From positions 1 through 64,000 of the forward strand of contig CALJAK010000011.1 in the NCBI GenBank assembly GCA_938027595.1: DNA of 64,000 bases, read 5' to 3'. Each line of letters opens with the position of its first letter. The stretch's first letter is position 1. The notes below the pieces were generated by a model, which was not told the DNA's origin, ran no database searches, and saw only the letters and a list, made by a program, of their open reading frames with translations. The DNA comes from an uncultured Thermoproteales archaeon. Lineage in GTDB: Archaea > Thermoproteota > Thermoprotei > Thermoproteales > Thermoproteaceae. Positions 16,818 to 20,770 of this stretch are shown here, in pieces. The translations under genes were made by a program, and so were the position numbers.

Positions 16818-19434
16818 GTTTAAGCACTTTCTTCAAGACGTAGGGCAGTACTCCCCCATGTCTTATGTACTCCACCTCAGCCCACGTGTGTACAGCCAGC
16901 CGCCCCTTCACTTCCTCCACTGTGCCGTCTCGTCTCTTAATTCTCAAAAACACCTCCCCACCCGGCTTCAACCCCCCCGAGAGTCCCAGTATGTCTATAG
17001 TTTCGTCTCCCTTCAACTCGAGAGGCGTCGGAGTTTGTATTGGAATTATTCCAACCATGGCGAGGTTCGTCCTATGTATCCTCTCGAAACTTTCCGCAAT
17101 CACAGCCCTCACCCCCAGCAACTTGGGGCCCTTAGCCGCCCAGTCTCTACTAGAGCCAGCCCCGTAGTTTTTGCCAGCCACAACCACCACCGGCACCCCC
17201 TCTCTCTTGTACATCTCAGCCACTTCATACACAGTGGCGACGATGCCCTCCGGCTGTTTAACTGCGTACCCCCCCTCTAGATTTCCAGCTTTATTTCTAT
17301 AGCCTCTACTGCCGAAAGTGCCGCGCACCATCACTTGCCAATTGCCGCGGCGGGCGCCGAAAGTGTTGAACTCATGTGGCTTGACCCCCAGCGACGTCAA
17401 GTACCGCCCAGCCGGGCTGTCGACCGGTATTCCGCCAGCTGGCGATATGTGGTCAGTGGTGATGTTGTCCCCCAGCACCAACAACGGCCTAGCGTTCACG
17501 ATGTCTCCCACATCTCCCCCGTTTGTGAACAATGGCGACGGCTGTATGTAAGTGTCGTTGGGGTCCCAGGGGTAGAGCAACCCAGTGGGGGCCTCCAGCT
17601 CGTCCCACAGCGGGTTCCGCCACTCCCTCCCCTCTAGCTCGCCCCACTCCTCCACCACGGCCTCCACTTCTCTCTGGCTGGGCCACAAGTCTGCTAGATA
17701 GACTGGACTCCCATCCGGCCGGAACGCCAACGGCTCGCTCTCTAAGTTCTTGTAGACAGTGCCGGCGATGGCGTATGCCACTACCAACGGCGGCGAGGTT
17801 ATGTACGCAGCCCGCACGTCTGGATGTATCCTACCCTCGAAATTCCGGTTGCCAGACAAAACGGCGGTGGCTAAGATGTCTTGCTCTCTCACGGCTTTAG
17901 CCACTGGCTGCGGCAACGGGCCTGAGTTACCTATACAAGTGGCGCAGCCGAAAGCCACCACGTGAAAACCCAATTGGTCTAGATACTTCTGTAGTCCACT
18001 CTTTTCGAGCATCTCCGCCGCCGCCCGGGAGCCGGGGGTGAAGCTAGTCTTCACGTAAGGCGGTGGTTTCAAACCCAACTCCACCGCTCTCTTGGCCAGC
18101 AAGCCGGCCGCCGCTAGGAGGTACGGATTGCTAGTGTTAGTGCAGCTAGTCACCGCTGCGATAACCACATCGCCGTCGCCAAAAGACACGCGGACTCCAT
18201 CTATCTCTATCTCCACTACTTTCCTCTGCCGCTTCTTTCTCTCGTTTAGAAAATCGGCGAAGCTCTTGGCCACCTCCCCCAACCTCCGCCGCTGCCAGGG
18301 TAACGTTGGTCCAGCCACTGCGTGATCCACAGTGGACAAATCTATCTCTACCACTTCGCTATATTCAGCGCTCTCCACGCCGCCGAAGACTCCCTGTAGT
18401 TTGTAATACGCTTCAACGAGCGCCACGCGGCTGGGCGGCCTCCCCGTAGCTCTCAAGTATTTCAACGTGTTCTCGTCTACTGGGAAAAGTGCCGTTGTGG
18501 AGCCGTACTCTGGCGCCATGTTGGCGATAGTTGCTCTATCCGGCGCAGACAACTCCCGCACACCCTCGCCGAAGAATTCCACAAAGGCGTCTACTACGTT
18601 CACTTTCCTCAACACCTCCGCCACAGCCAGCGCTACGTCTGTAGCCGTCACGCCGGGCTTCAACTTGCCGTATAGATAAACACCCACAACTCTCGGCGTG
18701 GGTATCGTGATGGGTTCTCCCAACATGACTGCCTCAGCCTCCACGCCGCCGACGCCCCACCCCAACACACCCAAACCATTCACCATGGTGGTGTGGCTGT
18801 CCATCCCCACCACAGTTTCGAAATACGCCAAGTCTCCCTCAGTCGCCACCACTTCCGTCAAGCGCTCTAAGTTTATTTGGTGTATAATGCCGACGCCCGG
18901 TGGGAACACCGTGAGGTTTTTGAAAGCCCCCTGCGCCCACTTTAGAAATCTATACCTCTCTCTATTTCTCGAGATCTCCATCTCCATGTTCTTCCAGAGC
19001 GCCTCCCGGGAGCCCCAGAAGTCCACATGCACCGAGTGGTCAATCACTAGAGCTACTGGTATCTTTGGATTCACCACCGCCGGATCTCCCCCGGCGTTGG
19101 CCACAATCTGGCGCATGGTGGCTAAGTCCACCACAGCCGGGACGCCGGTGTAATCTTGCATAATTACTCTAGAAATTTTTATAGCTATTTCTCCCCGAGG
19201 CGCCTTGGGGTTCCAGTTAGCTAACAACTCCAGTGCACTAGTGACGTCGCGGTTGTCTAGATTTCTAACTACGTTCTCCAACAGTATCCTAACTGAGTAG
19301 GGGAGTCTATCCACGTCGTAACCCTCTCTCTCCAATTCCTTCAGAGACACATATCGAAAGACCTCGCCCCCCACTGAAAATTGGCGAAACACGTCCAAAC
19401 TCGTGTCATGTATATAACTTTTTATTGTAGTCAA
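16810..19434 (-). CDS. acnA: aconitate hydratase, AcnA type
   Basis: 874 residues, the usual length of the monomeric AcnA/IRP-type enzyme. The N-terminus has IMQDYTGVPAVVDLATMR, then the cluster-ligand motifs VTSCTNTSNP and FGCATCIGNSGPL, and a C-terminal swivel domain with GDNITTDHISPAG and GKNYGAGSSRDWAAKGP. The [4Fe-4S] enzyme interconverts citrate and isocitrate in the TCA cycle (oxidative or reductive). The start overlaps the small zinc-ribbon gene upstream by 29 bp; a TATATAA box at about 19411-19417 lies inside the proposed N-terminus, so initiation may vary. Confidence 0.95.
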   Translation of the reverse strand: MTTIKSYIHDTSLDVFRQFSVGGEVFRYVSLKELEREGYDVDRLPYSVRILLENVVRNLDNRDVTSALELLANWNPKAPRGEIAIKISRVIMQDYTGVPAVVDLATMRQIVANAGGDPAVVNPKIPVALVIDHSVHVDFWGSREALWKNMEMEISRNRERYRFLKWAQGAFKNLTVFPPGVGIIHQINLERLTEVVATEGDLAYFETVVGMDSHTTMVNGLGVLGWGVGGVEAEAVMLGEPITIPTPRVVGVYLYGKLKPGVTATDVALAVAEVLRKVNVVDAFVEFFGEGVRELSAPDRATIANMAPEYGSTTALFPVDENTLKYLRATGRPPSRVALVEAYYKLQGVFGGVESAEYSEVVEIDLSTVDHAVAGPTLPWQRRRLGEVAKSFADFLNERKKRQRKVVEIEIDGVRVSFGDGDVVIAAVTSCTNTSNPYLLAAAGLLAKRAVELGLKPPPYVKTSFTPGSRAAAEMLEKSGLQKYLDQLGFHVVAFGCATCIGNSGPLPQPVAKAVREQDILATAVLSGNRNFEGRIHPDVRAAYITSPPLVVAYAIAGTVYKNLESEPLAFRPDGSPVYLADLWPSQREVEAVVEEWGELEGREWRNPLWDELEAPTGLLYPWDPNDTYIQPSPLFTNGGDVGDIVNARPLLVLGDNITTDHISPAGGIPVDSPAGRYLTSLGVKPHEFNTFGARRGNWQVMVRGTFGSRGYRNKAGNLEGGYAVKQPEGIVATVYEVAEMYKREGVPVVVVAGKNYGAGSSRDWAAKGPKLLGVRAVIAESFERIHRTNLAMVGIIPIQTPTPLELKGDETIDILGLSGGLKPGGEVFLRIKRRDGTVEEVKGRLAVHTWAEVEYIRHGGVLPYVLKKVLKHD

Positions 19435-19594
19435 CTACTTGTTGTCTTATCGCCTTTGGCGATCCCGTGGCTAACACTATGGCTTTCTCTGTCTGGAAGA
19501 GTCTACCGCAGTATGGACATTGGTGAGTTTTGGCTTCTGACTTAACGCCGCTTGCCCGCCCACAGTGGGGACACACCACCGCGCTGTACTTCAC
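19406..19594 (-). CDS. small zinc-ribbon protein
   Basis: 62 residues from GTG 19594, coupled to the upstream gene through a GTGA overlap. CPHCGRASGVKS and CPYCGRLF form a four-Cys zinc ribbon, followed by a short helical basic tail (SPKAIRQQVVDYNKKL). Such archaeal ribbons often bind nucleic acid or partner proteins, but no function can be assigned. The 3' end overlaps the aconitase start. The upstream in-frame residues (to 19648) are shadowed by the preceding gene. Confidence 0.72.
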   Translation of the reverse strand: MKYSAVVCPHCGRASGVKSEAKTHQCPYCGRLFQTEKAIVLATGSPKAIRQQVVDYNKKLYT

Positions 19595-20121
19595 TTGAGT
19601 ATCTTCTCTAGTAGTCTTAAAGCTTTTCCCAGTTGGTATTGGAAACAACCGTAGCGCGCTAGTTTGAACACCACGCCACCTCTGGCGTCTGGGCCGTACT
19701 GAGCACCCGTAGCGAAGAGGAGTCCTCTGTACTTCACAATTAAGTATTTACCTCTCGGCGTGACTCTCCCCCATTGCTTCGCCGTGGATATGTACGTAGA
19801 TACATAACCCAGTGGGGGAGCCATGGGGGCAATTGGCTCTAGACAGAGGTCCACTCGCTTAACTGCCACGTCTATAAAGCGAGCGACGGGGGGGTGAGAC
19901 ACCGGGGCGCAGATGGAGAGATCTGCCGGTAGTGTTGCGCCTCGCCAATTTATCAAGAGGAGACTCAGCGATGGGAAAGACGCTGGACAAGTCTCGGCTC
20001 CCCACTCCACTGCCACTCGCTGTAGGAATTGGGGGAGGTGACTCCCGACCCACTCGCCGATTGTGGTGGGTCGCTCCAAATCGAAGCGGTATTTGACTCG
20101 GCGCTGGAGAAGCCCCTGCAC
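19591..20121 (-). CDS. conserved-looking hypothetical protein
   Basis: About 176 residues from GTG 20121 (182 from GTG 20139). I do not recognise a family. The protein is mixed alpha/beta with several Cys and ends in a basic helix (LGKALRLLEKILK). The TATA box at 20148-20155 is 30 bp from GTG 20121 but only 12 bp from GTG 20139, which favours the shorter form. It is translationally coupled to the zinc-ribbon gene, suggesting the two products work together, which is inference. Confidence 0.6.
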   Translation of the reverse strand: MQGLLQRRVKYRFDLERPTTIGEWVGSHLPQFLQRVAVEWGAETCPASFPSLSLLLINWRGATLPADLSICAPVSHPPVARFIDVAVKRVDLCLEPIAPMAPPLGYVSTYISTAKQWGRVTPRGKYLIVKYRGLLFATGAQYGPDARGGVVFKLARYGCFQYQLGKALRLLEKILK

Positions 20122-20147
20122 GTAGGAAACTCTAACCACGTGAATGT

Positions 20148-20159
20148 TTATAAATAAAC
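20148..20159. promoter_or_regulatory. bidirectional TATA region
   Basis: TTTATAAATAAA contains the self-complementary TTTATAAA. To the left it is spaced for the hypothetical gene at 19591-20121, to the right for an ATG at 20175 that opens the 28-codon acidic peptide (centre to ATG about 23 bp). It resembles the shared box at 1211-1218. Confidence 0.55.
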
Positions 20160-20174
20160 CCTTTTCAAAACTTT

Positions 20175-20261
20175 ATGCCGTATTATAGAGAAGAGGAGTG
20201 GGAAGAGGAAGAACTCTGGGAGGAGTTTGAAGAAGAGTGGGAAGAAGAAGAAGAGTGGTAA
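20175..20261 (+). CDS. 28-residue Glu/Trp-rich microprotein
   Basis: ATG at 20175, 28 codons, TAA at 20259-20261. After MPYYR the peptide is almost only Glu (17 of 28) with Trp at positions 9, 15, 22 and 28 (spacings 6, 7, 6), plus one Leu and one Phe. If helical, the Trp residues would line up along one face. The TATA box at 20148-20155 is correctly placed for a leaderless start and a T-rich stretch (ATTTTTC) follows the stop. I know of no family for it. It could also be a chance purine-rich run: both GAA and GAG codons are used. Confidence 0.5.
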   Translation: MPYYREEEWEEEELWEEFEEEWEEEEEW

Positions 20262-20404
20262 TTTTTCAAAAACGTCCCCTTTTACCCCTTTTCATTTTTT
20301 AAAGAAGATTTGTTATATATACAAATAGGGTATTGTAATGTACACAGTTGTAGTCTAGGAATTGTTTGGGGTTAAGTTTTTAAATAGGGGGAATATGGAG
20401 AATT
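20262..20404 (+). promoter_or_regulatory. AT-rich intergenic stretch upstream of speH
   Basis: The stretch has T-rich tracts after the microprotein stop (possible terminator at 20260-20305), a TATA-like TTATATATA at 20313-20321 that leads to only a six-codon reading (ATG 20338), and TTTTTAAATA at 20377-20386, about 24 bp before the speH ATG. The first box could start a longer leader or an unseen small RNA; nothing further is recognised. Confidence 0.4.
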
Positions 20405-20770
20405 ATGGCGGGGGGTGTGGGGGTGGTGGGTAGACACATATATGGAAATCTCTATGGATGCGACTCCACATTGCTAAACGACGAAGTGGTTTTGACTTCT
20501 ATAGTGAGAGAAGCCGTGAGAGTGGCAAACGCCACGTTGATGTCTATAGGCGCGTATAGATTCTACCCAGGTGGTTTAACTATCTTTGCAATAGTGGCGG
20601 AGAGCCACATCTCGATACATACGTGGCCCGAGCACGGTTTTGCCACTGTAGATGTCTACACATGTGGCGACCACACTGACCCCAAAGCTGCTTTTGATTA
20701 CATAGTGTCTAGACTAAAGCCGTACAGAGTGGAGATGTACTACGGCGATAGGTCAATGCGGGGAGAATAA
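20405..20770 (+). CDS. speH: S-adenosylmethionine decarboxylase-family pyruvoyl enzyme
   Basis: 121 residues of the short prokaryotic AdoMetDC class. The self-cleavage site is ESHISIHTWPEHG, where the chain breaks before Ser and that Ser becomes the pyruvoyl group; the Cys in VYTCGDH is the proton donor. The product (decarboxylated AdoMet) feeds spermidine synthesis. Crenarchaea also have a paralogue that decarboxylates arginine, and the sequence alone does not let me exclude it. The ATG at 20405 follows a TATA-like box by about 24 bp. 27 bp separate it from the next gene. Confidence 0.85.
   Translation: MAGGVGVVGRHIYGNLYGCDSTLLNDEVVLTSIVREAVRVANATLMSIGAYRFYPGGLTIFAIVAESHISIHTWPEHGFATVDVYTCGDHTDPKAAFDYIVSRLKPYRVEMYYGDRSMRGE

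Follow-up and report, generated by a model that had tools for sequence, protein, structure and literature searches.

The question raised by this locus is whether an ORF of only 28 codons, dominated by Glu and Trp, is a gene and, if so, what its product might do. The window analysed here is the whole stretch of 64,000 nucleotides from an uncultured Thermoproteales archaeon; it is carried by contig C11 of the source genome, in which the DNA of the ORF is present once. The features that concern it are the following.

20175..20261, + strand: Glu/Trp (E/W) microprotein gene, 28 aa, MPYYREEEWEEEELWEEFEEEWEEEEEW, from the reading of the ORF and its conservation
20147..20156, + strand: TATA box TTTATAAATA, centred about 24-25 nt before the microprotein ATG, predicted to direct a leaderless transcript
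20262..20302, + strand: T-rich stretch after the microprotein stop, a probable transcription terminator

The ORF opens with an ATG at 20175 and closes with a TAA stop at 20259-20261. Its peptide comprises 17 Glu, Trp at positions 9, 15, 22, and 28, and a single Arg at position 5, and is devoid of Lys; the 28 codons, the Glu count and the Trp positions of the original prediction match the letters exactly. The promoter that this prediction had assigned to the gene corresponds to the TATA box at 20147-20156, and the T-rich stretch that it had placed past the stop was found at 20262-20302. A TATA-type box about 25 nt 5' of the ATG is also present in Pyrobaculum and Thermoproteus relatives, and most relatives of the gene have T-rich stretches 3' of the stop. 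Because of the distance of about 25 nt between TATA box and ATG, the Pyrobaculum microprotein gene is predicted to be leaderless and separately transcribed.

We considered the possibility that the ORF is noise or a purine-rich non-coding tract, as GAA/GAG-rich DNA easily yields such reading frames. Using speH as an anchor in eleven genomes of the genus and reading the region upstream of it, we found the microprotein at the same position in 9/9 further Pyrobaculum-type genomes with a completeness of 90% or more (one such relative, from a Pyrobaculum-type genome, reads MPIWYYREEEEWEEEEELWEEFEEEWEEEEEW). Close relatives are also present in Thermoproteus and Vulcanisaeta. A degenerate DNA pattern for WEEFEEEWEE matched 28 of 45 Thermoproteales genomes, at one site each, versus zero when the pattern was read backwards, which argues against noise. 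The named records with this pattern include Pyrobaculum oguniense, Pyrobaculum sp. WP30, Thermoproteus sp. AZ2, Vulcanisaeta distributa, and other Vulcanisaeta; an exact-pattern scan of named genomes returned only Thermoproteales-type records, and no match to WEEFEEEW was found in viral contigs. The 16-codon core is represented by 28 distinct DNA versions, among which 14 of the 16 third positions are variable, versus 1/16 first and 1/16 second positions. The sole first- and second-position changes share one codon, which encodes Leu in Pyrobaculum and Thermoproteus and Glu in Vulcanisaeta, and the remaining amino-acid changes are only two, both Glu to Asp. Both core Trp codons are fixed across the 28 versions, and Phe is encoded equally often by TTC and TTT, so that changes are nearly all synonymous, as not expected of a non-coding tract. 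As the variation of the core is almost purely synonymous, these sequences indicate that the Thermoproteales members are under purifying selection at the protein level. The ORF is thus almost certainly a real protein-coding gene, and a chance or non-coding origin is barely credible. The original prediction, which suggested that the peptide was not noise, had proposed looking for its conservation in the genus and for an excess of synonymous changes, and both checks bore it out.

The same prediction could point to no described family, and this agrees with our searches. No family matching the microprotein was found with Pfam and NCBIfam profiles, no match to the microprotein region in Rfam, and no match in the PDB up to E = 10 (phmmer, for which short biased sequences are hard). 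Literature searches, mainly of open-access coverage, found no described archaeal Glu/Trp microprotein or ABCE1-operon small protein. The microprotein is too small to be an enzyme, for which it has no room. An AlphaFold2 model of a 32-aa relative consists of one helix (residues 3-31, pLDDT 90.6); E-rich peptides are readily modelled as helices, and the model weakly suggests that a helix is formed. Of the designed amphipathic helix that had been proposed, the helix is compatible with this model; the exact heptad design is not retained, since the Trp spacing varies in the wider family described below.

The immediate neighbours of the gene are the following.

20405..20770, + strand: speH, adenosylmethionine decarboxylase (TIGR03330, 140.9 bits, cut-off 75.65)
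20377..20386, + strand: TATA-like box TTTTTAAATA, about 24 nt 5' of the speH ATG; putative promoter element of that gene
19591..20139, - strand: divergent gene encoding a 182-aa protein, a neighbour in Pyrobaculum and Thermoproteus
19406-19648, - strand: 80-aa protein with two CxxC pairs (a small zinc ribbon), between the divergent 182-aa gene and aconitase

The TATA-like box suggests that speH is transcribed separately from the microprotein gene. The position beside speH, as first described, holds locally; outside Pyrobaculum it recurs in a single Thermoproteus-type genome only, and the phylum-wide neighbour of the E/W gene is ABCE1. speH is probably a local neighbour, not a partner. The idea of a speH leader was rejected, on account of the separate TATA boxes and of relatives without speH. 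A second speH-like paralogue (about 50-56% identical) was observed in every Pyrobaculum-type genome that is at least 90% complete (L013-L022), with no adjacent E/W gene.

The 182-aa protein has several invariant Cys across Pyrobaculum and Thermoproteus and no match in Pfam or NCBIfam. Its AlphaFold2 model (pLDDT 90.9) gave no significant match when compared with PDB folds, and the protein may, on the strength of this model, have an orphan fold. That the gene encodes a diverged THUMP protein was considered and rejected: profile comparison gave a probability of 0.4%, and the true THUMP gene of the source genome lies elsewhere, on contig C8.

The microprotein of the window belongs to a set that extends through the phylum. 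With up to three mismatches, the WEEFEEEWEE pattern retrieved E/W proteins of greater length from other orders of the same class, and a looser pattern, EEWEEEEE, was found in 115 of 398 Thermoproteota genomes, the reversed control matching only a handful. The 97 distinct E/W tails collected have a composition of 73% Glu, 13% Trp, and 4% Phe, and 92 of the 97 close, next to the stop codon, with Trp (72 tails), Phe (13), or Leu (7). The ORFs range from about 18 to more than 80 aa, and the spacing between W/F residues is broad (3-9), the near-heptad spacing of Trp being a trait of the window's subfamily only. The window peptide likewise comes from a short, Glu/Trp-dominated ORF and has one of the three terminal residues W, F, or L; we regard it as a member of this set and infer orthology for the distant members.

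To avoid selecting on the E/W ORF, we located ABCE1 first, in 200 genomes, and read its upstream region at 69 loci, namely the 30 best ABCE1 matches and 39 others spread over many families, including extra genomes of f18 (f- and g-numbers are the family and genus labels of the genome collection used). An E/W ORF was found at most 1.5 kb upstream of ABCE1 at 35 of these 69 loci, a fraction that is descriptive and no estimate for the phylum, as neither the 30 best nor the 39 others are a random draw. Locus L214 was left out of the count, having been fetched with its E/W ORF already known. The ORF was present upstream of ABCE1 in 12/12 genomes of f15 and 10/10 of f18, and about half of the ABCE1-centred loci had no adjacent E/W gene. 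Clustering of neighbour genes placed ABCE1 (NF009945, 653 bits) directly downstream of the E/W gene, on the same strand, in many lineages, and the adjacency of the two extends to 22 Thermoproteota families in total when ABCE1-centred and E/W-centred loci are combined. Between them there is often a 95-aa TFS/RPB9-like zinc-ribbon gene, and a divergent THUMP-domain gene often lies upstream. The likely ancestral order, as read from these loci, is a divergent THUMP gene followed by the E/W gene, the TFS-like zinc ribbon, and ABCE1. Some families have the E/W gene next to a gene, assigned by eye, that resembles one for NAD synthetase, an AbrB/PhoU-type regulator, or asparaginyl-tRNA synthetase. In f16, the strand that carries the E/W ORF is the opposite of that carrying zinc ribbon and ABCE1.

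The 95-aa zinc ribbon found beside ABCE1 (L025, L071, L119, L137, and others) resembles transcription factor S in the N-terminal half of the latter only. The one copy tested scored below the TFS cut-off, and its sequence may represent a family of its own.

How these loci relate to the window can be followed stepwise. The order divergent THUMP, E/W gene, zinc ribbon, ABCE1 is found in f44, f5, and f10. Within the window's own order, genus g6 of f3 has the divergent THUMP, the E/W gene, and the zinc ribbon, with no ABCE1 in the stretch read; Vulcanisaeta-type (g8) genomes have only the divergent THUMP and the E/W gene (12/12); and in Pyrobaculum and Thermoproteus the microprotein gene adjoins the other divergent gene, not THUMP. 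The ABCE1 of the source genome is on contig C7, with no E/W ORF upstream, indicating that the ABCE1 link has been lost in the window's family. Because synteny is shared stepwise and the Pyrobaculum and Thermoproteus core has 15 of 16 residues in common with that of Vulcanisaeta, the window gene most likely descends, on this genomic evidence, from an ABCE1-linked gene that moved. One might object that only the Thermoproteales version, with its WEEFEEEWEE pattern, is one gene family and that the ABCE1-adjacent E/W ORFs elsewhere are independent low-complexity proteins. In sequence of such composition alignment cannot prove the homology of distant members, and lengths (about 18 to more than 80 aa) and Trp spacing differ. 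We consider independent origins rather unlikely, however, as the stepwise synteny of THUMP, zinc ribbon, and ABCE1 ties two genera of the window's order, g6 and g8, to f44, f5, f10, and others, and the terminal EEEEW/F rule is common to the set.

Acidic nascent chains destabilise translating ribosomes. It could therefore be proposed that the ORF is a cis-acting leader peptide, whose poly-Glu nascent chain would destabilise or stall the ribosome and thereby control the downstream gene, speH here and ABCE1 elsewhere. In many genomes the ORF does indeed precede speH or ABCE1 on the same strand and is short, like acidic leader peptides, which sometimes lie ahead of a translation gene, and termination could be slowed by the conserved aromatic codon that adjoins the stop. 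Yet a leader is co-transcribed with the gene it regulates and lies immediately upstream of it, whereas speH has its own TATA-like box, with T-runs in between. In Vulcanisaeta, the next gene downstream is convergent, at the Thermoproteus-type locus L082 no co-directional gene of known family follows, and in f16 the ORF and ABCE1 are on different strands. Unlike acidic leader peptides, the microprotein has a promoter-like element of its own and occurs without a co-directional downstream gene. A leader function appears very unlikely on these grounds and, as E/W copies exist without a co-directional downstream gene and on the opposite strand, the microprotein very probably acts in trans.

ABCE1, universal in archaea and eukaryotes, is a ribosome-recycling factor, and acidic Trp-containing peptides dock into basic surfaces with hydrophobic pockets. 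In view of the ABCE1 neighbourhood and the composition of the peptide, we tentatively favour, at somewhat less than even chances, the explanation that the microprotein is an ABCE1-linked acidic-aromatic ligand acting in trans; that it is linked to translation or recycling is an evenly balanced proposition. The microprotein would be a free, highly anionic peptide, studded with Trp and Phe and ending in an aromatic residue or Leu, which would dock as a ligand on a positively charged surface with hydrophobic pockets, either on ABCE1 or on a surface of the 30S subunit or of a factor that is used by ABCE1. Such docking, which would be comparable to the binding of the eIF3b RRM by the acidic, Trp-centred motif of eIF3j, would modulate the splitting and recycling of ribosomes. 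This specific mechanism, built on analogy, is possible, if doubtful, and adjacency to ABCE1 may reflect shared regulation rather than contact.

In the solved case, the conserved Trp in the acidic motif of eIF3j occupies a basic/hydrophobic pocket of the eIF3b RRM (PMC2824034), and ABCE1 interacts with the b, g, and j subunits of eIF3 (PMC5105147). The resemblance to the N-terminal acidic motif of eIF3j/Hcr1, Trp among acidic residues, is one of composition only, by inspection against PMC2824034. Both have a link to ABCE1, through gene neighbourhood here and through a reported interaction in eukaryotes. eIF3j is larger and has other domains, unlike the microprotein, which has 28 aa, no other domain, and no Pfam/NCBIfam match; the comparison is an analogy and no homology is claimed. 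eIF3 is not known from archaea. Conceivably, though we would not count on it, Thermoproteota have an accessory factor of translation, so far undescribed and made up of hardly more than the acidic-Trp motif, that partners ABCE1 (or a 30S surface) and regulates ribosome splitting as a functional counterpart of eIF3j. A phylum-wide microprotein encoded beside ABCE1 would give new access to the regulation of ribosome recycling in archaea in the absence of eIF3, and the ABCE1 link makes a direct biochemical test possible. The family is absent from Pfam, NCBIfam, and the PDB though phylum-wide and, in its Thermoproteales members, under strong protein-level selection; proteins made of almost nothing but two kinds of residue can be precisely conserved yet easily missed in annotation.

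Two other modes of action in trans were weighed against the ABCE1-linked ligand. In the first, the microprotein could serve in hot cells as an acidic chaperone of general scope, or as a mimic of nucleic acid, that protects basic proteins (ribosomal, chromatin), and it would have no specific connection to ABCE1. Its high Glu and Trp contents and loose Trp spacing suit multivalent binding to basic surfaces, and in several families the gene is beside unrelated ones; but the recurring adjacency to ABCE1 in 22 families is then hard to explain, and the core hardly differs between genera of the Thermoproteales, a precision beyond what bulk charge would demand, which leaves this role a doubtful one.

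Proteins of the SSB and T7 gp2.5 type have, at their free C-terminus, an acidic run that ends in an aromatic residue, and the microprotein could be a trans-acting analogue of this tail of single-stranded DNA-binding proteins. The likeness is one of general layout, an acidic run and a terminal aromatic; a Glu run followed by a final W, F, or L is found in 92 of the 97 E/W tails, and the motif also occurs as the C-terminal tail of about 110-aa proteins in one Pyrobaculum genome and of a LysW-like zinc ribbon, from which it follows that it is portable. Unlike these tails, the microprotein is encoded by a free-standing gene, has no attached OB-fold, and is not flanked by replication genes; its recurrent neighbours are genes of translation and transcription, and OB-fold or DNA-repair genes do not recur beside it on a wide scale. 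Such a role is quite unlikely.

LysW/ArgW amino-group carrier proteins share with the microprotein a very acidic C-terminus with Trp, and in some genomes a LysW-like zinc ribbon bears the E/W tail; unlike these carriers, the window peptide has Trp as its last residue where they have the carrier Glu, and it lacks a zinc ribbon. The LysW-like zinc ribbon with a long E/W tail was observed in family f37 (L111, L112, L113), one copy of which, when tested, scored above the cut-off of PF21344. The proteins of about 110 aa are three paralogues of Pyrobaculum genome G004 (L077, L078, L079); the domain ahead of their E/W tail is in no other genome of the genus, and TnpB-like genes lie near them.
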